DNA of 64,000 nucleotides from Asterias amurensis (lineage: Eukaryota > Echinodermata > Asteroidea > Forcipulatida > Asteriidae): assembly GCF_032118995.1 (NCBI RefSeq), contig NC_092665.1, forward strand, positions 16,202,012 through 16,266,011. The letters are read 5' to 3'. The notes beneath the pieces were generated by a model. That model did no database searches and was not told the DNA's origin. It was given only the letters and a program-made list of their open reading frames with translations. Within the stretch, counting starts at the first letter, position 1; each line of letters begins with the position of its first letter. A program made the position numbers and the translations under genes. Positions 38,753-64,000 of this stretch are shown here, in pieces.

Positions 38753-40204
38753 CTATATTGCATAAGAGTGGGTGACTTTTGAGCCAATTATGGTGGCGTA
38801 CTGTGACATCTCGATGCTTTCAAGAGATTTGTTCGGTTTGGCATACAGTGCGTGGATCGACTCCTTGTGAGCGTGCGTGTCCCTGGACTGTTGGGCCGTC
38901 CTATGTGGCTCAGTCACGGCGTGGCTGGTTGCCATTGGTGGCGGGGGAACTGCGGGTGGCTTGGGGTTGCAGCGTGGATCTCCAACAGTCATGTACTCTG
39001 AGATTGTAATGCTTCTCTGTGGTCTTGATGTCAAGCGTGTTGAATTCCCACTCTCCCGTCTGGTAGAGTCTTGGTGCTTGATGGGAATGGTGCCAGACTG
39101 ACGTCTGTGTTTGGCGATTTTGTACAGACACAAGGCAGAGACCACAATCATGATGAAGACGGCCAGAATGACCCCTATGTAGAGATCAAAACTAGTGAAA
39201 GTTCCAGGAGTGTCTTCTTGTTTACAGTTGGTGATATTGAGAGCTTCGCTTGTCGCATTCAGACCGACGGCATTGGATGCAGAGCATGTCACAATGAGAG
39301 AGTTGAACGACACGCAGTTGTTGATTCTCAGGAATCTTGAAGTAGCATTCCAGCTTACGTCTTGAAACCCACTATCAGAAACATTCCACGATAACCTAAT
39401 GGTGCCTTCCTGCACAGTCCAAGAATAGTGCGACATTTCGGGCACAGCTTCTGATCGACACTCTAAGTGGAGCTCGACCATCCCACTTTCGCTGTTGTAC
39501 TTTCTGTCGACAGCGACAGTAACGTGCCCAACACGCACCTTCAACGGTGTAACCGAGCAGTTGGGCCCCCTCGATCCGCCCCAGCCCGATATGCATACGA
39601 AACGTCCATAGTTGTCGCCCCCGCGAAGGCGATGTTTCACAATACTCGTTGAGCCTGGCTCAATCACGCGTGATTCTGCGAGAAGAGTACTCTGAGCGTT
39701 AGTTCGGGCCGAGTACCATGATAGCAGGGTGGGAATTTTAGTGTTATTTGGTACTCTGCACACCAGTGACACGGTATCATTTACATGTGGGGTCGTTGGA
39801 TTCAAAGTACAGATTGGGGTAGGAGGTTGAATAACAGTCAGACGCGCACGATTTGAATAAAGTGTTTTGGGAGAGTGCAAACATCTGAGGTCGCCTCCTT
39901 GTTTGGAACGAACATTGAGAAGCAGAAGCGTTGACATACAGTCTTTTAACAGAACGACTACGTCTTGTCTAGCATTTGTCTCTCTGTAAATGGTCGTTGA
40001 TGTTGATGTTCCATTAGCTTCCGCCTCAGAGTAACGAATCCAGACTATTCTCTCGCATTTTTTAGTTCGGCATGTGAACGTCGCGTTGCCTCCAACTTCG
40101 ACAGTAACATCATTTGGTTGTATAGAAAACACGCCATTTGATGATGAAGTCCCAAGCACGAATATTTGAATGCTACTGATAAGCAGTAAAATGCATAAAG
40201 CCAT
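38753..40204 (-). CDS. G0: divergent three-Ig receptor with two ITIM-like motifs
   Basis: Single-exon type I membrane protein, 483 residues. Signal peptide MALCILLLISSIQIFVLG; D1 with VEVGGNATFTC; D2 from PPTPICTLNP to RGPNCSVTPL; D3 with LHLECRSEAVP and LIVTCSASNAVG; membrane helix DLYIGVILAVFIMIVVSALCLY; basic stop KIAKHRRQ. D2 and D3 align in layout with G1-G7 (PPTPIC, GPNC.VTPL), so it is an older relative. The tail holds SEYMTV and SQYATI, both fitting the ITIM consensus (S/I/V/L)xYxx(I/V/L), plus PPAVPPPPM, a possible SH3 site. An inhibitory role through SH2 phosphatases is inferred from the motif alone. Several NxS/T sites are in the ectodomain. Confidence 0.85.
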   Translation of the reverse strand: MALCILLLISSIQIFVLGTSSSNGVFSIQPNDVTVEVGGNATFTCRTKKCERIVWIRYSEAEANGTSTSTTIYRETNARQDVVVLLKDCMSTLLLLNVRSKQGGDLRCLHSPKTLYSNRARLTVIQPPTPICTLNPTTPHVNDTVSLVCRVPNNTKIPTLLSWYSARTNAQSTLLAESRVIEPGSTSIVKHRLRGGDNYGRFVCISGWGGSRGPNCSVTPLKVRVGHVTVAVDRKYNSESGMVELHLECRSEAVPEMSHYSWTVQEGTIRLSWNVSDSGFQDVSWNATSRFLRINNCVSFNSLIVTCSASNAVGLNATSEALNITNCKQEDTPGTFTSFDLYIGVILAVFIMIVVSALCLYKIAKHRRQSGTIPIKHQDSTRRESGNSTRLTSRPQRSITISEYMTVGDPRCNPKPPAVPPPPMATSHAVTEPHRTAQQSRDTHAHKESIHALYAKPNKSLESIEMSQYATIIGSKVTHSYAI

Positions 40205-40846
40205 ATTAATTCAGTGATTTAATCAATTAAAACAACAACTGAGTCCAGAAGACGCCTTACATAGGTAGTGTGGACCCGGATTAAATGAATCAATGTTATT
40301 TCAAATTGACTTATTACAACTAAAAATTGTGGTTCATCGCTCAGTGAAGATGTTTCCCTTTTCGTTTGCATCAATTTCAGTTTTACATTCGATGTGACTT
40401 ATTATAATATTGTTATACGATTATTTGTTTTTGTTTCCTTTTACAAGAGTGCACTGTGATGTTAGTTTGTTACACCTATAAATTAACAACCTTGGCAAAA
40501 TAGCGAAAGAGAAAATAGTTTATAGAATGTGTCAATTAAAAGCTGAAACAAAAACACCAAGTTAAACAAAACATTGAATTACTTGTAAAGTAGGCCTGAG
40601 GCTCCCGGGCCCGTTTGATGATGAAGTACCGATCAAAATACGGCATCTCTTACAGACGGGGTTAACCAAATTGACCAAAGTCGGCCGATAAAAGCTTTCT
40701 AATTGGGAAGCAGCAATTAGCTAAATGAGTTGGTTACATCAGTTTGGTAGTATCAATACCCGGGATCCTGCCTAATTGACAATTCTGACCAATTTCAATC
40801 AAGAAACGCTACAATGATTAACTTGCAACTTGTTATGAACGTCATC
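40205..40846. promoter_or_regulatory. Presumed 5' region of G0
   Basis: AT-rich sequence upstream of the minus-strand G0 start. It is not similar to the conserved 5' blocks of G1-G7, so G0 may be regulated differently. No specific site was recognised. Confidence 0.3.
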
Positions 40847-41635
40847 TAAAAATTAGCAAAAACCCAAGAACAACTCAATCTCCATTAAGGTTTACGTGGC
40901 CGGTGGGGGCGCCTTGCACTTCTCTCCTCCCAGCCAAAACTATACCCATATTTGGGAAAATATTCATGTTCATAAAGGTGCAGTAATAATCATAATAGTG
41001 TGGGAACAAAACTGCCTGTGATCGAAAATAAAACTTATTACAGGGTTTGGTTTTATAAAAAAAACACGGTATTTCCCGTTTCCTGGTTGCAGCTAAAGTG
41101 TCTGAACAACTCGTACTACTCCCGTGAAACTGCTGGTTCTCATCAAGAGCGAACAAATAGCAACCTCTTTCGATTTTGGAACCACTCAATTGTTTTAATA
41201 GTGGTTGCAAACAACAACACTTATGTACATCTAAAAATTAGCAAAAACCCAAGAACAACTCAATCTCCATTACGGTTTACGTGGCCGGTGGGGGCGCCTT
41301 GCACTTCTCTCCTCCCAGCGAAAACTATACCCATATTTGGGAAAATATTCATGTTCATAAAGGTGCAGTAATAATCATAATAGTGTGGGAACAAAACTGC
41401 CTGTAATCGAAAATAAAACTTATTACAGAGTTTGGTCTCGTAAAAAGAAACGGTATTTCCCTGGTTGCAGCTAATAGTGTGTGAACAACTCGTTCAAATT
41501 GACTGGCCGACACTTGACTATACTACTCCCGTGAAACTGCTGGTTCTCAAGAGCGAACAAATAGTAACCTCTTTCGATATTGGAACCACTCAATTGTTTT
41601 AATAGTGGTTGCAAACAACAACACTTATATGTAAA
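40847..41635. repeat. Tandem pair of about 385-bp units
   Basis: Both units run from AAAATTAGCAAAAACCCAAG through CGTGGCCGGTGGGGGCGCC to GTGGTTGCAAACAACAACAC; the second starts at about 41228. A third diverged copy lies at about 51836-52165. The first unit lacks a short stretch (TTCAAATTGACTGGC) kept in the second and third. Confidence 0.8.
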
Positions 41636-41896
41636 AATCTCGTTATAAAAGGTGAGATATCGCTGAAGATCAGGACAAATGCAAAAGGGAAACTCCCTGA
41701 AAGGAACACACAAACTGAGAATTGTTACAGCAGTATCGCTTCTCGGATTCAAACTTTGGGCATAAATCTGATACATTTTAGGTTATTTCAAAGTGAAGCA
41801 TTTCTCAAAATGATTTGTAAAATCGAAAGCTGCTGTATGTTTCGAACCAGTTATAGTCATTATATCTTTTAGAATTACCGAACGTATACATTCCCT

Positions 41897-43764: not shown

Positions 43765-43884
43765 AACCGGCCCAGTTCAAACTTCCTGCGAATGCGATGC
43801 AGACGCTGTTTGTCTTAATGTGACGCAAGAAACTTCAAATCGCGTTCGCAGGAGGCTAGGCGCAATCGCAGGAAGTATGAAAAT
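43765..43884. repeat. MITE with CTTCCTGCGAATGCG arms, right end deleted
   Basis: Starts GGCCCAGTTCAAACTTCCTG; the inner right arm CGCAGGAAGTATGAA is present, but the terminal CCGGGCT seen in the other copy (54376-54497) is lost. Confidence 0.6.
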
Positions 43885-44568: not shown

Positions 44569-44573
44569 TGTAA

Positions 44574-45116: not shown

Positions 45117-47069
45117 TTACATGGTCTTGTAGGAGATGGTTTCGTAAGTTTCAAAGTCATCAATCTCTCGAGCCTCGTCGGATTGATCAAGCTGACAAGA
45201 AGACCCGCCAAGTCCAACCTCTCCAACTGTCATGTAACTTGGTAAAGTAATAGGCACCCTGGCTTCATTACTCCCGGTGGTTGGTGTAACACGCGCTGTA
45301 AGCTTACTCTTTAGAAGCTGGTTTTTCAGTGGGACTTTTGGTTTGGTAGGCCTAAGGGAAGTAGGCTTGATTCTTACCGAGTCGAGACTGCCGCCAGGGT
45401 TGACTTTTTCAGGGTCAGGATTGGCTGGGTGGGATGCCTCCTTTGTTGTTGAGCTCACTGCATGCTTTAGGGGGTGCTGAACATCAGGGGAAGGGGGCGC
45501 ACCGATTAACTGATAGTCGGGTAGTTGGAGTGGATTGGTATCCTCAACCTGAACTGACCCTTCGACCTCTGGGTGCTGTATATCAGTGTAATGCTCACCG
45601 ACAGTTTGATAGTCGGGTACTTGGAGTGGATTGGTATCCTCAACCAGAACTGAAGCTTCGACCTCTGGGTGCTTAACATCAGTGGAAGACTCGCAGCAAG
45701 CCCCATGGTCGGTCACGACTGGGAGTGGACGGCTGGTAGCCCCAATCTGTACTGGCGCTTCAACCTGGGGTACAGTAACCGTGGTCGTGTCGCTATCTAC
45801 TGCAGTACCTACTGTGGTGTTCTCAATTGGGCTGTAGTGATTCGGACTTGGGTCAACGCTTGCATCATTGGTCTGCTCTATGTCATCGTTACTTGACATG
45901 GTGTGAGGAGCAACACTAGTGGTGGATCTGTAAGTCTTCCTGTTCCTCCTGATGACTACAATGATGATTATGGTTACCAAAATGAGAGCTGATACAACGA
46001 TGATGATTATGAGCGAGATTGGGATATTCCAAGCTCCGTAAGACTTCCCGGTAGGATGACACTCTTTAATGTTCCCTGCCACAAAACGGCCGTCGGTACA
46101 TTGCAATACAGTCACTGGTTTACTCGTCTTGCTCATACCGATGTCATTATGAGCTGTGCACCTCACCTGTAGACCAGCATCTCTCCCTGTGATGTTGTAC
46201 ACGATGAGTAGATTCGATGTCAACTCAAAACCTCTTCGACTTTCGTTGCGAACATCCACCCAAGCTCGATCTGAGTCGTTCTGGGACCCGGTCTCGACGG
46301 CCCAGTCGAACTCCGTTGCCTTAGGAACCGCCGCCGCATCACACTCTAATCTTAGAGAATAATTTTGAGAGTCAAAATCGAGAAAATTCACGGTAACGGT
46401 CATGTCAATTCTGAGGGGTGTCACTGTGCAGTTTGGTCCCTCTGTTGGCTGACTGCCGGCAACACACATAAACTTCTTGTAGTTGTCTGTCTCTTTCAAT
46501 ACTAACTGTACGGTGTGCGATGAACCAGGCTCGACATTGCGTGTCATATTAGGGGTTATACGCCATGTTAGTTTAGTTGAAACCACGCTATCTTCTGGAA
46601 CTTTGCAGTTCAAAGAAACTTCGTCTCCTACCTCGGTATTTTTGGGGAAAGTTGAACAGATTGGAGTTGGTGGATTCACTACCTGCAAACGTGCACAGTT
46701 TGAAAATGTGTTCATGCCTGCTACCACGAGAAAACAAGCGTACACCCCAGCATCACTGAATTGTACATTGCTTATCTGGAACTGACTGGAATTTCCATCG
46801 AACGAGATGGACAACCGAGTTGTATCCACATCAGGATTAAAATATGGTGTACGGCATACGCCAATACCTGAATAAGAACTTGTGTCACAACCTAACTTCG
46901 AAGATGCCCAACCAACAATTCCACACTCGTAGTCTTGGTTGAAGACGCACTTAAATGTTGCAACGCCCCCAACGGTAACCGTAACATTTTCTGGATCTGC
47001 CAAGAAAATGCTAGCTCCTGTAAACGACGCCTTTAAGCAGCAGAGAATGAAGACAACCGCTGTTTCCAT
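45117..47069 (-). CDS. G1: three-Ig receptor with long A-type tail
   Basis: Single-exon type I receptor, 650 residues from METAVV. This start is preferred over one 32 codons upstream because it begins the signal peptide and is the only start available in G3. D1 about 22-131 (ATFKC; SDAGVYAC), D2 134-222 (SLNCKVP; FMCVAG; GPNCTVTPL), D3 224-324 (LRLECDA; LQVRCTAHND), stalk with KECHPTGK, membrane helix 351-373 (SLIIIIVVSALILVTIIIIV), then RRNRK. The 277-residue tail has YSPI, DYQTV, HYTDI, DYQLI, SYMTV, TYETI and SYKTM; the last fits a PI3-kinase YxxM site. No charged residue is in the helix, so no DAP12-type adaptor is expected. Many NxS/T sites. Closest paralog is G4. Confidence 0.9.
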   Translation of the reverse strand: METAVVFILCCLKASFTGASIFLADPENVTVTVGGVATFKCVFNQDYECGIVGWASSKLGCDTSSYSGIGVCRTPYFNPDVDTTRLSISFDGNSSQFQISNVQFSDAGVYACFLVVAGMNTFSNCARLQVVNPPTPICSTFPKNTEVGDEVSLNCKVPEDSVVSTKLTWRITPNMTRNVEPGSSHTVQLVLKETDNYKKFMCVAGSQPTEGPNCTVTPLRIDMTVTVNFLDFDSQNYSLRLECDAAAVPKATEFDWAVETGSQNDSDRAWVDVRNESRRGFELTSNLLIVYNITGRDAGLQVRCTAHNDIGMSKTSKPVTVLQCTDGRFVAGNIKECHPTGKSYGAWNIPISLIIIIVVSALILVTIIIIVVIRRNRKTYRSTTSVAPHTMSSNDDIEQTNDASVDPSPNHYSPIENTTVGTAVDSDTTTVTVPQVEAPVQIGATSRPLPVVTDHGACCESSTDVKHPEVEASVLVEDTNPLQVPDYQTVGEHYTDIQHPEVEGSVQVEDTNPLQLPDYQLIGAPPSPDVQHPLKHAVSSTTKEASHPANPDPEKVNPGGSLDSVRIKPTSLRPTKPKVPLKNQLLKSKLTARVTPTTGSNEARVPITLPSYMTVGEVGLGGSSCQLDQSDEAREIDDFETYETISYKTM

Positions 47070-47674
47070 TTTAGTAGTGATCGAGTTGAAAGCAGCAGCT
47101 ATAATGACCGAATTGCTTAAAACATTATTGGCCATTATAATACCAGCTTTATTTGTACACGCCATCGGGAGGTCGTTTCCTGCTTACTGATTATCACTTT
47201 CGATATGACGGGGCTTCACTATATTATTTCTGTCCTACTTTTTACCGCTCCCTTTTCACATCTTCTTCTTTCTCTTCTTTCCTTCCCCTTCTTTCATTTT
47301 CTTGAGTTTTCTTTTTCTAAAAAAAAAAAAAAAGTGTTTGTGCTTTGCTTTCAGTCATCAGAGAATCACACACTGAATTTTTTTATAAACTCTTTCGATT
47401 TGATTTTCATTTTCTGTTTTTTTTTTCTCTCCCTCTTACCAATTCTTCTTCATCTCCTTTTTTCTTTCTACTCCCGTCAAGTAGAAATTTTTCTTGTTAT
47501 GCATCTACTTATTACTTGATTTACTTATTTATAGAAAGCTGAAAAATAAAGATAGTTTAACAGATTTGATATTCGAGCCACAGCTGGAAATTCGTGTATA
47601 GAAAATTATCGTGTGAGTCCGAACAAAAAACGAACCCTCAGATTGTTTCGTCACTCATTGTTTGTTATGAATAT
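47070..47674 (-). promoter_or_regulatory. Conserved intergenic block G1/G2 (5' of G1, 3' of G2)
   Basis: Nearest the G1 start, CGCCATCGGGAGGTCGTTTC and TTTCGATATGACGGGGCTTC are kept in all intergenic blocks except 5' of G3. Next is a pyrimidine-rich run on the plus strand (purine-rich on the coding strand) at about 47240-47330. The far part is the 3' flank of G2. The function as a shared promoter is inferred from conservation only. Confidence 0.45.
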
Positions 47675-49199
47675 TCATGAAATATGTAGCCCCATGTACT
47701 CATGCGCAGTCGTCTCTCTATCACCAAGTTCCATGTATGCTCTATCCCCGGGAAGTTCATACTCCCCATCGTCTGGTTCCCTGACGTCAGACACAGCTTT
47801 TCTGTCACTTTGTCGAGCTGAAACCTTCTTGATGAGTCGACCTGATCGACGAGCCATACTCAATATGCGTGGTATCGCGGTTTCTCGTTGTATCTCACGA
47901 GACTGAGATTCGTGATATTTGGGGACCTGGTACCCGTTGTCGTTAATTACCTCAGTCGGGCTGTAGTGATTCGGACTTGGGTCAACGCTTGCCTCATTGG
48001 TCTGCTCTATGTCATCGTTACTTGACATGGTGTGAGGAGCAACACTAGTGGTGGGTCTGTAAGTCTGCCTGTTCCTCCTGATGACTACAATGATGATTAT
48101 GGTTACCAAAATGAGAGCTGATACAACGATGATGATTATGAGCGAGATTGGGATATTCCAAGCTCCGTTAGACTTACCGGTAGGATGACACTCTTTAATG
48201 TTCCCTGCCACAAAACGGCCGTCGGTACATTGCATTACAGTCACTGGTTTACTCGTCTTGCTCATACCGATGTCATTGTGAGCTGTGCACCTCACCTGTA
48301 GACCAGCATCTCTCTCTGTGATGTTGTACACGGTGAGTAGATTCGATGTCAACTCAAAACCTTCTCGAGTTTCGTAGCGAACATCCACCCAAGCTCGATT
48401 TGAGTCGTTCTGGGACCCGGTCTCGACGGCCCAGTCGAACTCCGTTGCCTTAGGAACCGCCGCCGCATCACATTCTAATCTTAGAGAAGAATTTTGAGAG
48501 ACAAAATCGAGAAAATTTACGGTAACAGTCATGTCTATTTGGAGGGGTGTCACTGTGCAGTTTGGTCCCTTTGTTGGCTGACTGCCGGCAACACACATAA
48601 ACTTCTTGTAGTTGTCTGTCTCTTTCAATACTAACTGTACGGTGTGCGATGAACCAGGCTCGACATTGCGTGTCATATTAGGGGTTATACGCCATGTTAG
48701 TTTAGTTGAAACCACGCTCTCTTCTGGAACTTTGCAGTTCAAAGAAACTTCGTCTCCTACCTCGGTATCTTTGGGGGAAAGTTGAACAGATTGGAGTTGG
48801 TGGATTCACTACTTGCAAATGTGCACAGTTTGAAAATGTGTTTATGCCTGCTACCGCGAGAAAACAAGCGTACACCCCAGCATCACTGAATTGTACATTG
48901 CTTATCTGGAACTTACTGGAATTTCCATTGAACGAGATTGAGAACCGAGTGATATCCACATCAGGTGTAAACGACGGTGTACGGCATTGTCCAACACTGT
49001 AATAATAACTTGTGTCACAACCTGACTCCGAAGATGCCCAGCCAACAAATCCACACTCGTAGTCTTGGTTTAAGATGCACTTAAATGTTGCAACGCCCCC
49101 AACGGTAACCGTAACATTTTCTGGATCTGCCAAGAAAATGGTAGCTCCTGTAAACGACGCCTTTAAGCAGCAGAGGATAAAGACAACCACCGTTTCCAT
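47675..49199 (-). pseudogene. G2: hybrid A-ectodomain/B-tail receptor, frameshifted
   Basis: Intact in D1 (METVVVF..CSTFP) and, in a different frame, from SLNCKVP to the stop, ending YMGLHIS. The break is at about 48770-48778, where G2 has five G before AAAG while G1 has four, so one base is extra early in D2. Without it the protein would have D1-D3 and the A-type helix and juxtamembrane part (RRNRQTYRPTTSVAPH), then at NHYSPTE a switch to the B tail (DNGYQVPKYHESQ, YELP, YMEL, YMGL). The lesion is in a homopolymer, so a sequencing error or polymorphism is possible. G5 is the intact counterpart. Confidence 0.8.
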
Positions 49200-49786
49200 T
49201 TTAGTAGTGATTGAGTTGAAAGCAGCAGCTATAATGACCGAATTGCTTATACCATTGTTGGCCATTATACCAGCTTTATTTGTACACGCCATCGGGAGGT
49301 CGTTTCCTGCTTACTGATTATCACTTTCGATATGACGGGGCTTCACCATAATATTTCTGTCCTACTTTTTACCGCTCCCTTTTCACATCTTCTTCTTTCT
49401 CTTCTTCCCTTCCCCTTCTTTCATTTTCTTTAACTTTTCTTTTTCTATAAGTAGTATTTATGTACTGCTTTCAGTCATCAGAGAATCACATACTGATTTT
49501 TGTTATGAACCCTTTCGAAGTATTTCATTTTCTGTTTTGTTTTTTGGTCTCCCTCTTACCAATTCTTCTTCATTTTTTATTCTTTCTACCCCGTCAAGTA
49601 TATATTTTCCTGTTTAATTACCTATTTGTTTACAATTTTTTTTATAGAAAGCTGAAGAATAATGATGGTTTTGACAGATCTGATAGTCGGGTCAAAGCTG
49701 GAAATTCGATTAAAATAAATTGTCGTCTGAGTCCAGACAAAGATAATCCCTCTATTCGTTTCGTCACTCATTGGTTGTTAGAATAT
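49200..49786 (-). promoter_or_regulatory. Conserved intergenic block G2/G3
   Basis: Same order as the G1/G2 block. Its distal half (TATTTTCCTGTTTAATTACC, GATGGTTTTGACAGATCTGA) is most similar to the G5/G6 block, which matches the three-gene duplication. Confidence 0.45.
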
Positions 49787-51370
49787 TCATGAGCTATGTA
49801 GCCCCATGTACTCATGCGCAGTCGTCTCTCTATCACCAAGTTCCATGTATTCTCTATCCCCGGGAAGTTCATATTCCCCATCGTCTGGCTCCCTGACGTC
49901 AGACACAGCTTTTCTGTCACTTTGTCGAACTGAAACCTTCTTGACGAGTCGACCTGATCGACGATCCATACTCACTTTCCGTGGTATCGCGGTTTCTCGT
50001 TGTATCTCACGAGATTGAGATTCGTGATACTTTGGGACTTGGTACCCATCGTCGTCCATCACCCTCCCGTCTGAACCTCCTGCCTCCTCTGACGTCATCG
50101 GGGTGTCACTTGGTCCTTCTGAAGCAGAGACGGCGCCCATTGGTGATGAGATGGGCGCCATTATAGTTCCAATAGAAGTTGCGTAAAAACTCGTCTGGCA
50201 TCCTTCTCCTTGCAAGCCTTGCCTTTGGTGTGTTGGCTTAACGGGGGTTTTAGGGGCTGCCAGAATCTTCCGTCTTTTAATGATGCAGATGACCATTGTC
50301 ATAACAGTTACAGACACTGATAACATTGCAATGACCACCCACACGACAAAGGGTATTGGCTGACTGCATTTCTCTGTGCACCCAGACACGCAACAGTCGT
50401 CGGTACATTGCAATACAGTCACTGGTTCACTCGTCTTGCTCATACCAATGTCATTATGAGCTGTGCACCTCACCTGTAGACCAGCATCTCTCTCTGTGAT
50501 GTTATAAACGGTGAGTAGATTCGATTTCAACTCAAAACCTCCTCGAGTTTCGTAGCGAACATCCACCCAAGCTCGATTTGAGTCGTTCTGGGACCCGGTC
50601 TTGACGGCCCAGCCGAACTCCGTTGCCTCAGGAACCGCCTCCGCATCACATTCTAATCTTAGAGAAGAATTTCGAGAGTCAAAATCTAGAAAATTCACGG
50701 TAACGATCATGTCAATTTTGAGGGGTGTCACTGTGCAGTTTGGTCCCTCTGTTGGCTGACTGCCGGCAACACACATAAACTCCTTGTGGTTGTCTGTCTC
50801 TTTCAATACTAACTGTACGATGTGCGAGGAACCAGGCTCGACGTTGCGTGTTATATTTGGGGTACGCCATGTTAGTTTAGTTGAAACCACACTCTCTTCT
50901 GGAACTTTGCAGTTCAAAGAAACTTTGTCTCCTACCTCGGTATCTTTGGGGGAAGCTGAACATATTGGAGTTGGTGGATTCACTACCTGCAAATGTGCAC
51001 AATGTGAAAATGTGTTTATGGGTGCCGCAAGCAAACACGCGTACATCCCAGCATCACCAAATTGTACATTGCTAATCTGGACCTGACTGGAATTGTCATT
51101 GAACAATATGGAGAACCGAGTTGCATCCACATCAGGGTTAAAAACTGGTGTACGGCATATCCCAATGGTCGAATAAGAACCACTGTCACAACCTGACTTC
51201 GAAGATACCCAGGCAACATTTCCACACTCGTAGTCTTGGTTTAAGACGCACTTAAATGTCGCAACGCCCCCAACGGCAACCGTAACATTTTCTGGATCTG
51301 CCAAGAAAATGCTAGCTCCTGTAAACGACGCCTTTAAGCAGCAGAGGATAAAGACAACCACTGTTTCCAT
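49787..51370 (-). CDS. G3: A-ectodomain receptor with B membrane segment and tail
   Basis: Single exon, 527 residues from METVVV; the frame upstream is not shared with the other genes, which fixes the start. D1-D3 are A type (GDAGMYAC; SLNCKVP; LQVRCTAHND). At VLQCTDD the sequence changes to the B stalk CCVSGCTEKCSQP, rich in Cys and able to form membrane-proximal disulphides, then the helix FVVWVVIAMLSVSVTVMTMV and IKRRK. The tail has DDDGYQVPKY, two YxxP sites, and YMEL and YMGL spaced by nine residues, an ITAM-like pair. The D1 CDR3-like loop is one or two residues shorter than in G1. Phosphotyrosine signalling is inferred from motifs. Confidence 0.9.
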   Translation of the reverse strand: METVVVFILCCLKASFTGASIFLADPENVTVAVGGVATFKCVLNQDYECGNVAWVSSKSGCDSGSYSTIGICRTPVFNPDVDATRFSILFNDNSSQVQISNVQFGDAGMYACLLAAPINTFSHCAHLQVVNPPTPICSASPKDTEVGDKVSLNCKVPEESVVSTKLTWRTPNITRNVEPGSSHIVQLVLKETDNHKEFMCVAGSQPTEGPNCTVTPLKIDMIVTVNFLDFDSRNSSLRLECDAEAVPEATEFGWAVKTGSQNDSNRAWVDVRYETRGGFELKSNLLTVYNITERDAGLQVRCTAHNDIGMSKTSEPVTVLQCTDDCCVSGCTEKCSQPIPFVVWVVIAMLSVSVTVMTMVICIIKRRKILAAPKTPVKPTHQRQGLQGEGCQTSFYATSIGTIMAPISSPMGAVSASEGPSDTPMTSEEAGGSDGRVMDDDGYQVPKYHESQSREIQRETAIPRKVSMDRRSGRLVKKVSVRQSDRKAVSDVREPDDGEYELPGDREYMELGDRETTAHEYMGLHSS

Positions 51371-51835
51371 TTTAGTAGTGATCGAGTTGATAACAACAGC
51401 TATAATGACGGTTCAGTGCCAATTCCTACACAACTAAATTGAGCCGTTCAAGTGTAAATTTTTCCGTCCCTGGCTTTCATTTTCGTTTATTTAAATATTT
51501 ATTTCCTTTTGGAAATTTACATTTGTGTGTATGTTGCCATAGAGGGCGCAACATTAACTGGCTCTGGGGAATCTTTATCATAAGCAGCCTATGGGTGTAA
51601 ATGTTTTTTGCTCAGGAACCCGGCTAATTTGCATGATGGCGAAGCAAGCAGTGACAGAGTGTTTGCGTGCCTTAGACTTTTATTAGAACTGCAAAAAGGT
51701 AAACATAAAGACATGTGTGCCTACAGGAATAGACTGTTATAGGACCGGTGTGAGAGGAGACATTGCTTTCCCCTCCCCCTCCCCTCCCCTCCCTACCACG
51801 CCCAACAACGCCCTGCATTTATTTCCTCCCCAGCC
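51371..51835 (-). promoter_or_regulatory. Non-conserved 5' flank of G3
   Basis: Similarity to the other array genes stops about 45 bases upstream of the G3 start (after ACAGCTATAATGAC). Beyond that the sequence is unrelated to the shared 5' block. G3 has therefore lost the common promoter region at a duplication junction, or uses another. Confidence 0.45.
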
Positions 51836-55558: not shown

Positions 55559-55561
55559 TGT

Positions 55562-55848: not shown

Positions 55849-57690
55849 TTACATGGTCTTGTAGGAGATGGTTTCGTAAGTTTCAAAGTCATCAATCTCT
55901 CGAGCCTCGTCGGGTTGATCAAGCTGACAAGAAGACCCGCCAAGTCCAACCTCTCCAACTGTCATGTAACTTGGTAAAGTAATAGGCACCCTGGCTTCAT
56001 TACTCCCGGTGGTTGGTGTAACACGCGCTGTAAGCTTACTCTTTAGAAGCTGGTTTTTCAGTGGGACTTTTGGTTTGGTAGGCCTAAGGGAAGAAGGCTT
56101 GATTCTTACCGAGTCGAGACTGCCGCTAGATGTGACCTTTTCGGGGTCAGGACTGGCTGGTTGGGGTGCCCCCTCTGGTGTTGAAGTCACTACATGCTTT
56201 AGGGGGTACTGTACATCAGGGGAAGGCGCACCGATTAACTGATAGTCGGGTAATTGAAGTGCATTGGTATCTGCAACCAGAACTGGCACTTCGACCTCTG
56301 GGTGATGTACATCAGCGGAAGACTCGCAGCAAGCCTCATGGTCGGTCACGACTGGGAGTGGATGGCTGGTATCCCCAATCTGTACTGGCGCTTCAACCTG
56401 GGGTACAGTAACCGTGGTCGTGTCGCTATGTACTGTGGTACCTACTGTGGTGTTCTCAATTGGGCTGTAGTGATTCGGACTTGGGTCAACGCTTGCCTCA
56501 TTGGTCTGCTCTATGTCATCGTTACTTGACATGGTGTGAGGAGCAACACTATTGGTGGGTCTGTAAGTCTTCCTGTTCCTCCTGATTACTACAATGATGA
56601 TTATGGTTACCAAAATGAGAGCTGATACAACGATGATGATTATGAGCGAGATTGGGATATTCCAAGCTCCGTTAGACTTACCGGTAGGATGACACTCTTT
56701 AATGTTCCCTGCCACAAAACGGCCGTCGGTACATTGCAATACAGTCACTGGTTCACTCGTCTTGCTCATACCGATGTCATTATGAGCTGTGCACCTCACC
56801 TGTAGACCAGCATCTCTCTCTGTGATGTTATACACGGTGAGTAGATTCGATGTCAACTCAAAACCTCTTAGACTTTCGTTGCGAACATCCACCCAAGTTT
56901 GATCTGAGTCGTTCTGGAAGCTGGTCTCGACGGCCCAGTCGAACTCTGTTGCTTCAGGAACCGCCTCCGCATCACATTCTAATCTTAGATAAGAATTTTG
57001 AGAATCAAAATCTAGAAAATTCACGGTAACGATCATGTCAATTTTGAGGGGTGTCACTGTGCAGTTTGGTCCCTCTGTTGGCTGACCGGCAACACACATA
57101 AACTTCTTGTAGTTGTCTGCGTCTTTCAATACTAAATGTACGGTGTGCGATGAACCAGGCTCGACGTTGCGTGTTATATTAGGGGTACGCCATGTTAGTT
57201 TAGTTGAAACCACACTCTCTTCTGGAACTTTGCAGTTCAAAGAAACTTTGTCTCCTACCACAGTGTTTTTAGATGAAGTTGAACATGTTGGAGTTGGTGG
57301 ATTCACTACCTGCAAATGTGCACAGTTTGAAAACTTGTTTATGTCTGTAAGCCAACACGCGTACATTCTAGCATCACTGAATTGTACATTGTTAATCTGG
57401 AACTGACTGGAGTTGCCATCGAACGAGAAGGAGAACCGAGTGGTATCTACACCAGGAATCAAAGATGGTGAACGGCATACGCCAACACTGGAATAAGAAT
57501 TGACGTCGCAACCTGACTTCGAAAATACCCAGCGAAACCTTTCACACACGAGGTCTTGGTTTAAGACGCACTTAAATGTTGCAACGCCCCCAACGGCAAC
57601 CGTAACATTTTCAGGATCTGCCAAGAAAATGCTAGCTCCTGTAAACGACGCCTTTAAGCAGCAGAGGATAAAGAAAACCACTGTTTCCAT
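55849..57690 (-). CDS. G4: three-Ig receptor with A-type tail
   Basis: Single exon, 613 residues from METVVF. Same architecture as G1, with the A-type helix and tail (SPIENTTVG, DYQLIGAPS, SYMTV, TYETISYKTM). The tail lacks one repeat present in G1 (DYQTV..HYTDI with its flanks), so tandem units in the tail differ in number. D1 departs most from the others: VCERFRWVFSKSGCDVNSY and a CDR3-like loop ACWLTDINKFSNC that is two residues shorter than in G1, and the usual SDAGVYAC reads SDARMYAC. These differences may change ligand binding. Its 5' flank retains the shared block; its 3' flank matches G1. Confidence 0.9.
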   Translation of the reverse strand: METVVFFILCCLKASFTGASIFLADPENVTVAVGGVATFKCVLNQDLVCERFRWVFSKSGCDVNSYSSVGVCRSPSLIPGVDTTRFSFSFDGNSSQFQINNVQFSDARMYACWLTDINKFSNCAHLQVVNPPTPTCSTSSKNTVVGDKVSLNCKVPEESVVSTKLTWRTPNITRNVEPGSSHTVHLVLKDADNYKKFMCVAGQPTEGPNCTVTPLKIDMIVTVNFLDFDSQNSYLRLECDAEAVPEATEFDWAVETSFQNDSDQTWVDVRNESLRGFELTSNLLTVYNITERDAGLQVRCTAHNDIGMSKTSEPVTVLQCTDGRFVAGNIKECHPTGKSNGAWNIPISLIIIIVVSALILVTIIIIVVIRRNRKTYRPTNSVAPHTMSSNDDIEQTNEASVDPSPNHYSPIENTTVGTTVHSDTTTVTVPQVEAPVQIGDTSHPLPVVTDHEACCESSADVHHPEVEVPVLVADTNALQLPDYQLIGAPSPDVQYPLKHVVTSTPEGAPQPASPDPEKVTSSGSLDSVRIKPSSLRPTKPKVPLKNQLLKSKLTARVTPTTGSNEARVPITLPSYMTVGEVGLGGSSCQLDQPDEAREIDDFETYETISYKTM

Positions 57691-58287
57691 TTTAGTAGTG
57701 ATCGAGTTGAAAGCAGCAGCTATAATGACCGAACTGCTTATAACATTATTGGCCATTATACCAGCTATATTTGTACACGCCATCGGGAGGTCGTTTCCTG
57801 CTTACTGGTTATCACTTTCGATATGACGGGGCTTCACCATATTGTTTCTGTTCTACTTTTTACCGCTCCCTTTTCACATCTTCTTCTTTCTCTTCTTTCC
57901 TTCCCCTTCTTTCATTTTCTTGAATTTTTCTTTTTCTATAAAAAAAAGTCTTTGTGCTTTGCTTTCAGTCATCAGAGAATCACACACTGAATTTTGTTAT
58001 GAGCCCTTTTGATTTGATTTTCATTTTCTGTTTTGTTTTCTCTCCCTCTTACCAATTCTTCTTCATCTCCTTTTTTCTTTCTACTCCCGTCAAGTAGAAA
58101 TTTTTCTTGTTATGCATCTACTTATTTCTTGATTTACTTATTTATAGAAAGCTGAAAAATAAAGGTAGTTTAACAGATTTGATATTCGAGCCACAGCTGG
58201 AAATTCGATTATAGAAAATTATTGTGAGAGTCCGAACAAAAAACGAACCCTCAGATTGTTTCGTCACTCATTGTTTGTTATGAATAT
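57691..58287 (-). promoter_or_regulatory. Conserved intergenic block G4/G5
   Basis: Near-identical by eye to the G1/G2 block, including TATGCATCTACTTATT and AAAGCTGAAAAATAAAG, as expected if G4-G5 is a copy of G1-G2. Confidence 0.45.
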
Positions 58288-59805
58288 TCATGAGCTATGT
58301 AGCCCCATGTACTCATGCGCAGTCGTCTCTCTTTCACCAAGTTCCATGTATTCTCTATCCCCGGGAAGTTCATATTCCCCGCCGTCTGGTTCATTGACGT
58401 CTGACACAGCTTTTCTGTCACTTTGTCGAGCTGAAAACTTCTTGATGAGTCGACCTGATTGACGATCCACACTCAATATGCGTGGTATCGCGGTTTCTCG
58501 TTGCCTCTCACGAGATTGAGATTCGTGATATTTGGGGACCTGGTACCCGTTGTCGTCCATTACCTCAATCGGGCTGTAGTGATTCGGACGTGGGTCAACG
58601 CTTGCCTGATTGGTCTGCTCTATGTCATCGTTACTTGACATGTGGGGAGCAACACTAGTGGTGGGTCTGTAAGTCTTCCTGTTCCTCCTGATGACTACAA
58701 TGATGACTATGGTTACCAAAATGAGAGCTGTAACAACGATGATGATTATGAGCGAGATTGGGATATTCCAAGCTCCGTAAGACTTACCGGTAGGATGACA
58801 CTCTTTAATGTTCCCTGCCACAAAACGGCCGTCGGTACATTGCAATACAGTCACTGGTTCACTCGTCTTGCTCATACCGATGTCATTATGAGCTGTGCAC
58901 CTCACCTGTAGACCAACATCTCTTCCTGTGATGTTATACACGGTGAGTAGATTCGATGTCAACTCAAAACCTCCTCGAGTTTCGTTGCGAACATCAACCC
59001 AAGCTCGACTTGAGTCGTTCTGGGACCCGGTCTCGACGGCCCAGTCGAACTCCGTTGCCTTAGGAACCGCCGCCGCATCACATTCTAATCTTAGAGAAGA
59101 ATTTTGAGAGTCAAAATCTAGAAAATTCACGGTAACGATCATGTCAATTCTGAGGGGTGTCACTGTGCAGTTTGGTCCCTCTGTTGGCTGATGACCGGCA
59201 ACACACATAAACTTCTTGTAGTTGTCTGCCTCTTTCAATACTAACTGTACGGCGTGCGAGGAACCAGGCTCGACGTTGCGTGTTATATTAGGGGTACGCC
59301 ATGTTAGTTTAGTTGAAACCACACTCTCTTCTGGAACTTTGCAGTTCAAAGAAACTTTGTCTCCTACCTCGGTTTTTTGGGGGAAAGCTGAACATATTGG
59401 AGTTGGTGGATTCACTACCTGCAAATGTGCACAATGTGAAAATGTGTTCATGCCTGCTACCGCGAGAAAACACGCGTACATCCCAGCATCACCAAATTGT
59501 ACATTGCTAATCTGGAACTGACTGGAATTGCCATTAAACGAGAGGGAGAACCGAGTGGTATCCACATCAGGGTTGAAATTTGGTGTACGGCATGTCCCAA
59601 TCGTAAAATAAGAATCGCTGTCGCAACCTGACTTCGAAGCTACCCAGCCAACACTTCCACACTCGTAGTCTTGGTTTAAGACGCATTTAAATGTCGCAAC
59701 GCCCCCAACGGTAACCGTAACATTTTCTGGATCTGCCAAGAAAATGTTAGCTTCTGTAAACGACGCCTCTAAGCAGCAGAGGATAAAGACAACCACCGTT
59801 TCCAT
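58288..59805 (-). CDS. G5: hybrid receptor, A ectodomain and helix with B tail
   Basis: Single exon, 505 residues from METVVV, intact. D1-D3, stalk (KECHPTGKSYGAWNIP) and helix (SLIIIIVVTALILVTIVIIV) are A type and continue to NHYSPIE; then VMDDNGYQVPKYHESQ starts the B tail, ending YELP, YMEL, YMGLHSS. The junction is at the same codons as in G2, so the hybrid arose before the block duplication or was copied by conversion. The D1 loop ACFLAVAGMNTFSHC is full length. It couples a G1-like ectodomain to the opposite signalling tail, the arrangement expected of paired receptors. Confidence 0.9.
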   Translation of the reverse strand: METVVVFILCCLEASFTEANIFLADPENVTVTVGGVATFKCVLNQDYECGSVGWVASKSGCDSDSYFTIGTCRTPNFNPDVDTTRFSLSFNGNSSQFQISNVQFGDAGMYACFLAVAGMNTFSHCAHLQVVNPPTPICSAFPQKTEVGDKVSLNCKVPEESVVSTKLTWRTPNITRNVEPGSSHAVQLVLKEADNYKKFMCVAGHQPTEGPNCTVTPLRIDMIVTVNFLDFDSQNSSLRLECDAAAVPKATEFDWAVETGSQNDSSRAWVDVRNETRGGFELTSNLLTVYNITGRDVGLQVRCTAHNDIGMSKTSEPVTVLQCTDGRFVAGNIKECHPTGKSYGAWNIPISLIIIIVVTALILVTIVIIVVIRRNRKTYRPTTSVAPHMSSNDDIEQTNQASVDPRPNHYSPIEVMDDNGYQVPKYHESQSRERQRETAIPRILSVDRQSGRLIKKFSARQSDRKAVSDVNEPDGGEYELPGDREYMELGERETTAHEYMGLHSS

Positions 59806-60402
59806 TTTAGAAGTGATCGAGTTGAAAGCAGAAGCTATAATGACCGAATTGCTTATAACATTATTGGCCATTATAATACCAGCTTTATTTGTACACGCCA
59901 TCGGGAGGTCGTTTCCTGCTTACTGATTATCACTTTCGATATGACGGGGCTTCACCATATTATTTCTGTCCTACTTTTACCGCCCCCTTTTCACATCTTC
60001 CTATTTCTATTCTTCCCTTCCCCTTCTTTCATTTTCTTTAACTTTTCTTTTTCTATAAGTAGTATTAATGTATTGCTTTACGTCATCAGGGAATACTGAT
60101 TTTTGTTATGAACCCTTTCGATTTGACTTTCATTTTCTGTTTTGTATTTTTGTCTCCCTCTTACCAATTCTTCCTCATTTTTTTATTTTTTTTTTTCGTT
60201 CTACCCCGTCAAGTATATATTTTCCTGGTAATTACCTATTTGTTTAAAATTTTTTTTTATAGAAAGCTGAAGAATAATGATGGTTTTGATAGATCTGATA
60301 GACGGGTCACAGCTGGAAATTCGATTAAAATAAATTGTCGTCTGAGTCCAGACAGAGATAATCCCTCTATTTGTTTCGTCACTCATTGGTTGTTATGAAT
60401 AT
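59806..60402 (-). promoter_or_regulatory. Conserved intergenic block G5/G6
   Basis: Same shared 5' elements; the distal part is closest to the G2/G3 block (TATTTTCCTG, GATGGTTTTGATAGATCTGA). Confidence 0.45.
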
Positions 60403-61992
60403 TCATGAGTTATGTAGCCCCATGTACTCATGCGCAGTCGTCTCTCTGTCACCAAGTTCCATGTATTCTCTATCCCCGGGAAGTTCATATTCCCCATCGT
60501 CTGGCTCCATGACGTCTGACACAGCTTTTCTGTCACTTTGTCGAGCTGAAACCTTCTTGACGAGTCGACCTAATCGACGAGCAATACTCAGTTTCTGTGG
60601 TATCGCGGTTTCTCGTCGTATCTCACGAGATTGAGATTCGTGATATTTGGGGACCTGGTACCCATCGTCGTCCATCATCATCCCGTCTGACCCTCCTGCC
60701 TCCTCTGACGTCATTGGGGTGTCACGTGGTTCTTCTGAAGCAGAGACGACGCCCATTGGTGAGTTGGGCACCATTCTAGTATCAATAGAAGTTGCGTAAA
60801 AACTCGTCTGGCATCCTTCTCCTTGTAAGCCTTGCCTTTGGTATGTTGGCTTAATGGGGGGTTTAGGAGCGTTCAGAATCTTCCTTCTTTTAGTGATGCA
60901 GACGACCATTGCCATAACAGTTACAGCCACTGATAAAATTGCGATTACTACCCACATGTACAAGGGTATATGCTGACTGCATTTCTCTGTGCATCCAGAC
61001 ACGCAACAGTCGTCGAGACTTTGCAATCCAGTAACTGGCTTACTCGTTTCGCTAACACTGACGTCATTATGAGCTGTGCATCTAACCTGCAGACCAGTGC
61101 CATTGTCGTAAACAGATTTTGTGACCATCACTAGAAATCTTTGTGCCTCGATAAACTCATATGTGTTGGATGCATTAATGTTCTTCCATTCCATCGACGA
61201 ATCGTTAACCAACCAATCATACCTCGTCACCGCTGGTATTGCGAACGCAACACATTCTAAAAGAAACGTCGACTCGGAACCGTCTTCATCTGGGAGGATA
61301 CCAATATGAACCTTGACCCTGGTCGTCATAGGAACCCTCAGCGGTGAGGCCACCGTGCAGTTCGGACCTCTGTCTGTATTGTAACCAGCAATGCACATGA
61401 ACTGTCCGTTATTATCTGTTTCTTTGAGAACATGCAGTGTAACTAACTCCATTGCGCTTTGTGTCGTTCTGATTTGGCGCGTTGGCTCCACTGACCAGGT
61501 AAGTTGTGTACCGACTGTCATGTTTCCCGGCACTTTACAGGTCAGCATGACAGTTTCCCCTACCGCGGCATTTTCGTGTGGGTAAATTGTACATACAGGA
61601 GTAGTTTGGACAACCTGTAAATGTCCACAGTTTGAAATTGTGTCTGTATAACATGCGTACATTCCAGCATCACTGAATTGTACATTGTTAATCTGGAACT
61701 GACTGGAATTGCCATCGAACGATAAGGAGAACCGAGTGGTATCTACAAAGGGATTATAACTTGGTGATTGGCATACGCCAATACTGATGAAATAAGGACT
61801 TGTGTCGTCGCAACCTGACTTCGAAGATACCCATTCAACAAATCCACACGGGTAGTCTTGGTTGAAGACGCATTTAAATGTTGCAACGCCCCCAACGGTA
61901 ACCGTAACATTTTCTGGATTTGCCAAGAAAATGCTAGCTCCTGTAAACGACGCCTTTAAGCAGCAGAGAATAAAGACAAACACTGTTTCCAT
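60403..61992 (-). CDS. G6: receptor with B-type D2-D3, helix and tail
   Basis: Single exon, 529 residues from METVFV. D1 is of the shared type (PCGFVEWVSSKSGC; SDAGMYAC) but with the shortest CDR3-like loop, ACYTDTISNC. D2-D3 differ strongly from G1-G5: CTIYPHENAAVGETVMLTC, QLTWSVEPTRQIRT, FMCIAGYNTDRGPNC, then FLLECVAFAIP and LQVRCTAHNDVSVSE. Stalk DDCCVSGCTEKCSQ, helix YMWVVIAILSVAVTVMAMV and the B tail follow, ending YELP, YMEL, YMGLHNS. The shared RGPNC and RCTAHND motifs show both D2-D3 versions have common ancestry. Intact, with the shared 5' block. Confidence 0.9.
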   Translation of the reverse strand: METVFVFILCCLKASFTGASIFLANPENVTVTVGGVATFKCVFNQDYPCGFVEWVSSKSGCDDTSPYFISIGVCQSPSYNPFVDTTRFSLSFDGNSSQFQINNVQFSDAGMYACYTDTISNCGHLQVVQTTPVCTIYPHENAAVGETVMLTCKVPGNMTVGTQLTWSVEPTRQIRTTQSAMELVTLHVLKETDNNGQFMCIAGYNTDRGPNCTVASPLRVPMTTRVKVHIGILPDEDGSESTFLLECVAFAIPAVTRYDWLVNDSSMEWKNINASNTYEFIEAQRFLVMVTKSVYDNGTGLQVRCTAHNDVSVSETSKPVTGLQSLDDCCVSGCTEKCSQHIPLYMWVVIAILSVAVTVMAMVVCITKRRKILNAPKPPIKPTYQRQGLQGEGCQTSFYATSIDTRMVPNSPMGVVSASEEPRDTPMTSEEAGGSDGMMMDDDGYQVPKYHESQSREIRRETAIPQKLSIARRLGRLVKKVSARQSDRKAVSDVMEPDDGEYELPGDREYMELGDRETTAHEYMGLHNS

Positions 61993-62590
61993 TTTAGTAG
62001 TGATCGAGTTGACGGCTGCAGCTGTAATGAACGAATTGCTTATAACATTATTGGCCATTATAAAACCAGCTATATTTGTACACGCCATCGGGAGGTCGTT
62101 TCCTGCTTACTGATTATCACTTTCGATATGACGGGGCTTCACCATATTATTTCTGTTCTACCTTTACCGCTCCCTTTTCACATCTTTTTGTTTCTCTTCT
62201 TTTCTTCCCCTTCTTTCATTTTCTTGAATTTTTCTTTTTTTATAATAGTGTTTGTGCTTTGCTTTCAGTCATCAGAGCATCACACACTGAATTTTGTTAT
62301 GAACCCTTTCAATTTGATTTTCATTTTCTGTTTTTTTGTTTGTTTCCCTCTTACCATTTCTTCTTCATCTTCTTTTTTTCTTTCTACTCCCCATCAAGTA
62401 GAAATTTGTTGTTATGCATCTACTTATTTACTTGATTTACTTATTTATAGAAAGCTGAAAAATAAAGATAGTTTTAACAGATTTGATATTCGAGCCACAG
62501 CTGGAAATTCGATTAAAGCAAATTATTGTGTGAGTCCGAACAGAGACAATCCCTCAGATTGTTTCGTCACTCATTGTTTGTTATGAATAT
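61993..62590 (-). promoter_or_regulatory. Conserved intergenic block G6/G7
   Basis: Shared 5' block of G6 and 3' flank of G7. The distal part (TATGCATCTACTTATT, AAAATAAAGATAG) resembles the G1/G2 and G4/G5 blocks rather than G5/G6, so flanks and genes do not share one history. Confidence 0.45.
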
Positions 62591-64000
62591 TCATGAGCTA
62601 TGTAGCCCCATGTACTCATGCGCAGTCGTCTCTCTATCACCAAGTTCCATGTATTCTCTATCCCCGGGAAGTTCATATTCCCCATCGTCTGGCTCCCTGA
62701 CGTCTGACACAGCTTTTCTGTCACTTTGTCGAGCTGAAACCTTCTTGACGAGTCGACCTGATCGACGAGCCATACTCAGTTTCCGTGGTATCGCGGTTTC
62801 TCGTTGTATCTCACGAGATTGAGATTCGTGATATTTGGGGACCTGGTACCCATCGTCGTCCATCATCATCCCGTCTGAACCTCCTGCCTCCTCTGACGTC
62901 ATTGGGGTGTCACGTGGTTCTTCTGAAGCGGAGACGACGCCCATTGGTGAGTTGGGCACCATTCTATTATCAATAGAAGTTGCATAAAAACTCGTCTGGC
63001 ATCCTTCTCCTTGTAAGCCTTGCCTTTGGTGTGTTGGCTTAATGGGGGGTTTAGGAGCGTTCAGAATCTTCCGTCTTTTAGTGATGCAGACGACCATTGC
63101 TATAACAGTTACAGCCACTGATAAAATTGCGATTACTACCCACATGTACAAGGGTATTGGCTGACTGCATTTCTCTGTGCATCCAGACACGCAACAGTCG
63201 TCGAGACTTTGCAATACAGTAACTGGCTCACTCGTTTCGCTAACACTGACGTCATTATGAGCTGTGCATCTAACCTGCAGACCAGTGCCATTTTCGTAAA
63301 CAGATTTCTTGACCATCACTAAAAATCTTTCTGCCTCGATAAACTCATATGTGTTGGATGCATTAATGTTCTTCCATTCCATCGACGAATCTTTAACCAA
63401 CCAATCATACCTCGTCACCGCTGGTACCGCGAACGCAACACATTCTAAAAGAAACGTCGACTCGGAACCGTCTTCATCTGGGAGGATACCAATATGAATC
63501 TTGACCCTGGTCGTCATAGGAACCCTCAGTGGTGAAGCCACCGTGCAGTTCGGACCTCTGTCTGTATCGTAACCAGCAATGCACATGAACTGTCCGTTAT
63601 TATCTGTTTCTGTGAGAACATGCAGGGTAATTAACTCCATTGCGCTTTGTATCGTTCTGATTTGGCGCGTTGGCTCCACTGACCAGGTAAGTTGTGATGT
63701 ACCGACTGTCATGTTTCCCGGCACTTTACATGTCAGCAAAATAGTTTCCCCTACCGCGGCATTTTCGTGTGGGTAAACCGTGCATACAGGAGTAGGGGTT
63801 TGGACAACCTGCAAATGTCCACAATTTGAAACTTTGTTTATGTCTGTAAGCCAACACGCGTACATCCCAGCATCACTGAACCGTACATTGCTAATCTGGA
63901 ACTGACTGGAGTTGCCGTTGAACGAGAAGGAGAACCGAGTGGTATCTACACCAGGAATCAAAGATGGTGAACGGCATACGCCAATACTGATGAAATAAGG
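62591..64000 (-). CDS. G7: B-type receptor, 5' end outside window
   Basis: Open to the window edge; the visible part starts within D1 at PYFISIGVCRSPSLIPGV and runs through D2, D3, the B stalk and helix (LYMWVVIAILSVAVTVIAMV) to the B tail, ending YMGLHSS. D2-D3 and tail are nearly those of G6. D1 is a mosaic: PYFISIGVC matches G6, whereas SPSLIPGVDTTRFSFSF and ACWLTDINK match G4. The signal peptide and first part of D1 must lie beyond base 64000, and the array probably continues. Confidence 0.88.
   Translation of the reverse strand, partial: PYFISIGVCRSPSLIPGVDTTRFSFSFNGNSSQFQISNVRFSDAGMYACWLTDINKVSNCGHLQVVQTPTPVCTVYPHENAAVGETILLTCKVPGNMTVGTSQLTWSVEPTRQIRTIQSAMELITLHVLTETDNNGQFMCIAGYDTDRGPNCTVASPLRVPMTTRVKIHIGILPDEDGSESTFLLECVAFAVPAVTRYDWLVKDSSMEWKNINASNTYEFIEAERFLVMVKKSVYENGTGLQVRCTAHNDVSVSETSEPVTVLQSLDDCCVSGCTEKCSQPIPLYMWVVIAILSVAVTVIAMVVCITKRRKILNAPKPPIKPTHQRQGLQGEGCQTSFYATSIDNRMVPNSPMGVVSASEEPRDTPMTSEEAGGSDGMMMDDDGYQVPKYHESQSREIQRETAIPRKLSMARRSGRLVKKVSARQSDRKAVSDVREPDDGEYELPGDREYMELGDRETTAHEYMGLHSS

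Follow-up and report, generated by a model that had tools for sequence, protein, structure and literature searches.

In the vertebrate KIR, LILR and NITR clusters, receptor modules are encoded on separate exons, and the short forms of vertebrate paired receptor families often signal via adaptors. Here, we describe an array of eight immunoglobulin (Ig) receptor genes, G0 to G7, in a 64,000-nucleotide stretch of the genome of the sea star Asterias amurensis (contig NC_092665.1; C18:16202012-16266011 in the contig numbering used here), hereinafter the window. In contrast to the separate exons of KIR, LILR and NITR, the genes of this array are single open reading frames (ORFs), and whereas the vertebrate short forms often use adaptors, the transmembrane helices of G1-G7 contain no charged residue (assessed by eye).

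The genes of the KIR, LILR, FCRL and Xenopus XFL families are intermingled and combine like ectodomains on different helix-tail types with domain shuffling (for XFL, PMC2413239). In XFL, however, the domains lie on separate exons and intergenic exon recombination has been proposed (PMC2413239), whereas the sea-star modules share one frame. The fester co-receptor (FcoR) genes of the fuhc locus in Botryllus, an invertebrate deuterostome, have been described from 53 loci so far and encode type I receptors with V-type and C2-type Ig domains and with tails that carry an immunoreceptor tyrosine-based inhibitory motif (ITIM), a hemITAM or YxxI/L/V (PMC12065747). As described there, FcoRs include a sushi domain (V-Ig, sushi, two C2-Ig), whereas none was among the Pfam matches at E 0.01 in 18 sea-star frames, and oligomorphic FcoR loci swap motifs by alternative splicing, whereas the sea-star genes differ at the gene level, within an intron-free frame. 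The allorecognition complex of Hydractinia contains the Alr family, 41 genes for Ig receptors with V-set and I-set domains (PMC11999971); candidate genes carry ITIMs or immunoreceptor tyrosine-based activation motifs (ITAMs; PMC12065747), but the family is cnidarian. The oyster CgIgIT2 is likewise an invertebrate multi-Ig receptor with a tyrosine-based motif but has five Ig domains and, in the account of PMC11999971, is presented as one protein rather than as a tail-swapping array.

The array resembles the known paired Ig receptors in the way it works, without demonstrated kinship to any of them, and module swapping inside an intron-free frame is a new feature. We know of no earlier case of tails being swapped inside an intron-free coding frame. 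The SpTransformer (Sp185/333) proteins of sea urchins are secreted. Echinoderm immune diversity has been told through the TLR, NLR, scavenger-receptor and SpTransformer families (PMC13428168); the last are clustered, mosaic echinoderm genes like those of the array but, as presented in that source, encode effector proteins, not Ig receptors. The first-pass annotation of the window knew of no described echinoderm family with this layout, and indeed we found no description of an echinoderm family of such Ig receptors in the full-text literature searched, whose coverage leaves out most subscription journals. None of the papers listed in these searches was relevant to 'IgTM' as an existing name or to sea-star 'Ig kappa' antibodies, and both were set aside.

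The ORFs bear out the eight minus-strand receptors initially reported at 38753-64000 of the window (Table 1). Open frames are listed for G0, G1, G3, G4, G5 and G6, and G2 is represented by two overlapping frames: its C-run at the junction of the first two Ig domains (D1/D2) is one base longer than in the neighboring genes, which shifts the frame. G2 is either a broken copy or a read error, so that the intact genes number seven. G7 is complete in the genome (C18:16264602-16266215, a full frame of 537 amino acids (aa)), with the start codon 192 bases beyond the window end. In seven of the eight genes, the coding part is a single ORF that proceeds from a signal peptide through Ig-type domains and a helix to a tyrosine-rich tail. 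METV is the probable start because the in-frame extension upstream of it is interrupted in G3 and G7; a start farther upstream was rejected on the same grounds.

Table 1 Receptor genes of the array and their features (positions in the window)
Feature	Positions	Strand	Description
G0	38753..40210	-	485 aa frame, Met 40204; diverged ectodomain, own tail
G0 tail motif SEYMTV	38984..39001	-	strict ITIM pattern
G0 tail motif SQYATI	38789..38806	-	strict ITIM pattern
G1	45117..47183	-	688 aa frame, Met 47069; D2-D3 type 1, helix type A, long tail
G1 tail motif region	45120..45611	-	YQTV, YTDI, YQLI, YMTV, YETI, YKTM
G1 upstream region	47070..47489	-	type P1, common to G2, G4, G5, G6
G2 (frameshifted)	47675..49310	-	frames 48702-49310 and 47675-48805; D2-D3 type 1, helix type A, YxxL-pair tail
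G3	49787..51412	-	541 aa frame, Met 51370; D2-D3 type 1, helix type B, YxxL-pair tail
G3 best breakpoint	50404	-	aa 322; before, mostly G5-like; after, G6/G7-like; 0/20000 permutations
G3 upstream region	51371..51790	-	type P2, like that of G7, unlike G1, G2, G4, G5, G6
G4	55849..57801	-	650 aa frame, Met 57690; D2-D3 type 1, helix type A, long tail
G5	58288..59919	-	543 aa frame, Met 59805; D2-D3 type 1, helix type A, YxxL-pair tail
G5 best breakpoint	58566	-	aa 413; before, G4-like; after, G7-like; 0/20000 permutations
G6	60403..62106	-	567 aa frame, Met 61992; D2-D3 type 2, helix type B, YxxL-pair tail
G6 paired YxxL	60415..60465	-	YMEL-x9-YMGL
G7 (part inside window)	62591..64000	-	D2-D3 type 2, helix type B, YxxL-pair tail

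Pfam searches detected V-set, I-set or Ig_3 domains in all eight window frames that were run (G2 as two pieces; G7 not among them), with Ig_3 above the cut-off in seven frames and V-set above it in the eighth, the N-terminal piece of G2. A hydrophobic N-terminus and one strong helix after the ectodomain, seen in the hydropathy profiles, characterize these proteins as type I receptors of the Ig superfamily. Basic residues follow the helix on its C-terminal side, and each complete ectodomain (G0, G1, G3, G4, G5, G6) contains 7 to 9 N-glycosylation sequons. Of the three Ig domains and one helix originally assigned to each receptor, the Ig domains and the helix are clearly present; the count of three derives from conserved cysteines in the alignments, some domains being individually below the Pfam cut-off.

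The array is a clean mosaic of modules and two upstream-region types, with breaks at the stalk and juxtamembrane borders. The D2-D3 protein sequences form two groups, G6 with G7 (92% identity) and G1-G5 (84-93%), with 40-49% identity between the groups. The stalk, helix and juxtamembrane segment groups G3 with G6 and G7 (79-97%) and, separately, G1, G2, G4 and G5 (91-97%; 20-32% between groups), and the tails unite G1 with G4 (88%) and G2, G3, G5, G6 and G7 with each other (83-97%; 24-29% between groups). D1 is 70-85% alike across the array, with mixed relationships; for example, the middle of the G4 D1 (about aa 60-100) is closest to G7. In the upstream DNA, G3 resembles G7 rather than the other five genes, with identity of up to 86% per 120-column window, although this likeness is uneven, going down to 49% and not being the best match in every such window. 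The splits uniting G3 with G7 and G6 with G7 are incompatible with one tree. Single-breakpoint permutation tests gave 0 of 20000 permutations for each of the seven triplets tried. One of these, G6 compared with G5 and G7, chiefly reflects the transition from upstream and leader sequence to body. The best breaks, at aa 322 (G3), 413 (G5) and 420 (G2), correspond to the stalk and the juxtamembrane-tail border. Like copies are spaced at about 10.6-10.7 kb, so that a gene block was duplicated and the eight genes do not represent eight independent events. The near-identical ectodomains described at first are found in G1, G3 and G4 (83-89% identical to G5 over the whole ectodomain), but not in G6 and G7 (52%) or in G0 (31%).

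The segment identities and the seven triplets support the view of these genes as mosaic receptors with interchangeable tails, and another set, larger than the array and on contig C14, shows tail exchange again. When searched against the genome (491.5 Mb in 23 contigs), G4 produced 33 matches and G0 28, self-matches and pieces counted, with the next best match of G0 at 34%. A two-Ig ectodomain family has 114 genome matches, nearly all on C14. Its short tail (AYEEM/AYEEL followed by SYQEL/SYQDL) was found at 34 places, some of them fragments, 30 being in frames of at least 320 aa, and its long tail at 25 places, 24 in frames of that length; outside C14, there is one short-tail place on C17 and one long-tail place on C18. 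Each long-tail gene is 80-95% identical to the nearest long-tail gene in the helix and tail and 47-87% in the ectodomain. Three long-tail genes of the main C14 array are 77-83% identical to the nearest short-tail gene outside the helix and tail and 29-33% within them, and two neighbors near 4.02 Mb are 87% alike outside and 25% inside. The DNA identity falls in or beside the stalk in the three pairs examined. In this arrangement, as in paired receptors, like ectodomains are joined to different tails.

We mapped tail class on an ectodomain tree of 24 sequenced genes (6 long-tail, 18 short-tail), 23 of which belong to the 59 tail places, the remaining gene, 3282034, having a short-type helix and an altered C-terminus; at least four rows (547382, 583785, 3080351, 3084410) are incomplete or short at the N-terminus, and three helix-less frames were excluded. 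Tail class changes five times on this tree (4-5 in the bootstrap), with at least three changes forced by well-supported branches. Because 212 of 500 shuffles gave values as low as five, tail class is no more clustered than expected by chance.

Chimeric genes could also be produced by collapsed or mis-joined haplotypes in the assembly, given that very similar tandem copies are prone to misassembly and that the one-base shift in the C-run of G2 could be a read error. This explanation appears highly improbable, considering that the assembly was made from PacBio HiFi reads (as stated in PMC10625585), that the module logic is repeated at separate places on C14 and that the best breakpoints coincide with domain borders. 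Also on C14, two adjoining receptor genes (C14:134803-137983), 34% like G4, have tails of about 50 and about 4 residues; the latter gene, practically without a tail, is possibly a signaling-dead or decoy form.

The genome-wide counts are lower bounds, with the best 150 of 444 V-set candidates scored and 145 kept. Frames that stay open for at least 330 aa contain no fewer than 99 of the V-set matches (49 on C14, 22 on C18, 10 on C1, 9 on C9, the rest scattered); two of these share one frame, six are genes of the window, and the helix and tail were checked for part of them. In the published A. amurensis annotation, the mean coding sequence consists of 1,885.87 bases in 10.07 exons (PMC10625585), that is, about 187 coding bases per exon, so that Ig frames of 1 kb or more are unusual in this genome. 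The other 46 of the 145 matches are in shorter frames, 36 of them on C19 (frames of 82-216 aa). C19 apparently harbors a separate, intron-split V-set gene expansion on one chromosome, an internal contrast to the single-frame genes. The C19 matches are located mainly at 2.5-2.8, 8.8-10.3 and 13.0 Mb. Single frames of about 340-750 aa also contain V-set domains at C1:25.59-25.67 Mb, at C18:15.11-15.14 and 15.83-15.98 Mb, at several places on C9 and at C10:5.4 Mb.

It seems somewhat likely that the array is one cluster of a genome-wide superfamily of germline-encoded, single-frame type I Ig receptors with swappable tails, which would probably function in coelomocyte recognition. Such receptors, presumably expressed at the cell surface, would bind an extracellular ligand through the membrane-distal V-set domain, with its variable loops resembling complementarity-determining regions (CDRs), followed by one or two Ig domains. 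The single helix and the basic residues that follow it would place the tyrosine-rich tail in the cytoplasm, where Src-type kinases could phosphorylate the Yxx[LIVM] and ITIM-like motifs; the phosphorylated motifs might then recruit SHP-2, a SYK-like kinase and other SH2 proteins, SH2 exons being present in the genome. Because there are no introns between the modules, they would be exchanged within the coding sequence itself, by gene conversion or unequal crossing-over that joins ectodomains to different helix-tail modules, so that one recognition surface would become wired to different outputs. The most likely role of the receptors would be the recognition of non-self or self markers by coelomocytes.

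The tails of the window genes are of the three kinds originally distinguished. G0 carries SEYMTV and SQYATI; G1 and G4 share multiple Yxx motifs (YQLI, YMTV, YETI and a terminal YKTM), with YQTV and YTDI extra in G1; and G2, G3, G5, G6 and G7 have the YMEL-x9-YMGL pair. A genome search with the G6 tail returned five matches, exclusively these five genes. DYQ units number one in the G4 tail and two in the G1 tail, and YAVV-type units are present in one or two copies in the C14 long tails. By eye, a hydrophobic-YAxx[DNH]K motif recurs across otherwise different tails, including that of G0 (LYAKPNK). The strict ITIM, [SIVL]xYxx[IVL], was not seen by eye in any G1-G7 tail, and within the window only G0 has matches; 'paired receptor' in the KIR sense is therefore unproven. 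The proposal of paired immune receptors accordingly stands with respect to like ectodomains on different tails, but lacks support with respect to opposed signals, the strict ITIMs of the window being confined to G0, whose ectodomain is 31% like that of G5, and the ITAM-like pair being within chance.

Motif frequencies were compared to shuffles in 15 tails, chosen at about one per class from 46 helix-bearing frames (two of the 46 being non-receptors) and not fully independent, two C14 long tails being related. Yxx[LIVM] was observed 36 times (13.1 in shuffles), the strict ITIM 11 times (3.0 expected), YxxP 17 times (5.6) and YA..[DNHE] 18 times (1.1), with none of the 2000 shuffles reaching the observed value in any of the four cases; in this wider set, thus, ITIMs do exceed chance. 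YxxP is a Crk-type SH2 site. In the matching 15 ectodomains, Yxx[LIVM] is depleted (17 vs 29.6 expected). Further tail grammars are seen in single-frame receptors at C18:2.88 Mb, with very long tails and repeated YAxP[DH]K, and in two receptors, closely similar by eye, at C5:22.68-22.70 Mb, with YEIPK/YDIPK.

Variation in D1 is concentrated in the presumptive binding loops. Among G1 and G3-G7, the mean pairwise difference is 0.142 in the framework vs 0.333, 0.376 and 0.523 in the CDR1-, CDR2- and CDR3-like loops, as delimited by eye without a structure, and none of 10000 label shuffles or 112 circular shifts reached the observed excess. The ratio of nonsynonymous to synonymous substitution rates (dN/dS) in D1 is 0.41-1.13 over 15 pairs.

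Several observations weigh against a superfamily of recognition receptors with swappable signaling tails. The loop borders are placed by eye, and by segment, dN/dS is mostly below 1, the few pairs above 1 elsewhere resting on few changes; diversifying selection is therefore unsupported and was rejected. An ITAM-like pair with a spacing of 6-12 was seen once, in one tail class, a count reached in 173 of 2000 shuffles; the strict ITAM (YxxL/I-x6-8-YxxL/I) was likewise rejected for the YxxL pair, given the spacing of 9 and a count within chance. In six C14 long tails, 17 of 28 tyrosine-window columns are invariant vs 108 of 193 elsewhere (p 0.69), with no sign of extra constraint around the tyrosines. 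The C14 short tail, too, matches the formal ITIM (SSYQEL), so that polarity is unreadable from the motifs. The ectodomain tree leaves nine of its 21 inner branches open, and the position of row 547382, which has a long branch, is unsure.

Some of these results would also follow from neutral tandem duplication, in which the differences in tail and helix are conversion accidents among recent copies, many of them dispensable, and the pairing of outputs is not selected. The apparently random distribution of tail class on the ectodomain tree and the lack of extra constraint on tyrosine windows among recent copies agree with such a process, as do the G2 frameshift and the fragments and internal stops in some C14 copies. 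Yet, open frames of at least 320 aa hold seven window genes and 54 of the 59 C14-type tail places, comparisons of the two D2-D3 types give a dN/dS of 0.22-0.45 where computable, and motifs are in excess in the tails, so that we regard wholly neutral duplication as quite unlikely.

Alternatively, the genes could belong to a cell-adhesion or gamete-recognition Ig family, similar to CEACAM or IgLON, in which the tails regulate adhesion and the mosaicism results from birth and death of genes, without an immune role. When the ectodomain profile was compared to 8313 PDB sequences, the best 60 matches included chains of CEA, Robo, contactin and IgLON, in line with adhesion, but also FcRL5, pIgR, CD276 and SIRP-alpha; KIR or LILR chains were not among these 60. 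Because adhesion and immune receptor chains are mixed in the best 60, the comparison is non-discriminating. ITIM-like tails are present on some adhesion proteins, but dozens of tandem, tail-exchanged copies are unusual for adhesion families, and the adhesion alternative appears unlikely.

Components that could act downstream of swappable-tail receptors are encoded in the genome. A search with PF00017 gave 49 SH2 matches, part of which were examined as sequences: SHP-2 is matched over the 166 positions typed by exons at C18:13.904-13.906 Mb (E 1e-85), ZAP-70 and SYK are matched by exons at C13:8.05-8.06 Mb (E 2.9e-33), and other SH2 exons resemble Src, CSK, NCK, GRB2 and PLC-gamma (by eye only). 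Every animal is expected to have such genes, and finding them does not demonstrate action with these receptors. Sea-star coelomocytes distinguish self from non-self: in another species, Patiria pectinifera, they gather around allogeneic cells and phagocytose them (PMC9763293). The main text of that paper lacks the word 'receptor', and no receptor is named for this activity. A more far-reaching scenario, which we put forward tentatively and with considerable doubt, is that sea stars evolved an intron-free counterpart of the vertebrate leukocyte receptor complex, with well over 100 single-exon Ig genes in which in-exon conversion rewires V-set ectodomains to activating or inhibitory tails for allorecognition or non-self recognition by coelomocytes. 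With a large set of Ig receptors bearing ITIM-type tails, sea stars would join cnidarians and tunicates among the invertebrate lineages that converged on wiring in the style of natural killer cells. The array and the C14 set are defined candidate genes for sea-star allorecognition.

Beyond G7, at a distance of 2.2 kb, the plus strand contains a 452 aa frame (C18:16268370-16269728) in which a single D3-type domain, a helix and a VYSSP/IYSIP-bearing tail can be made out by eye; Pfam gave no match for this frame. Elsewhere in the window, at positions below that of G0, a guanylate cyclase gene (Pfam Guanylate_cyc) has plus-strand exons at 26000-27454 and 33754-34140. The window also contains a frame for a C-type lectin (13244-13900) and exons of trypsin type (909-1316 and 7481-7819). 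A three-base A/T repeat of about 1 kb (17907-18888) is open on both strands as poly-L/Y/I/N, and a second simple repeat occupies 17394-17756.

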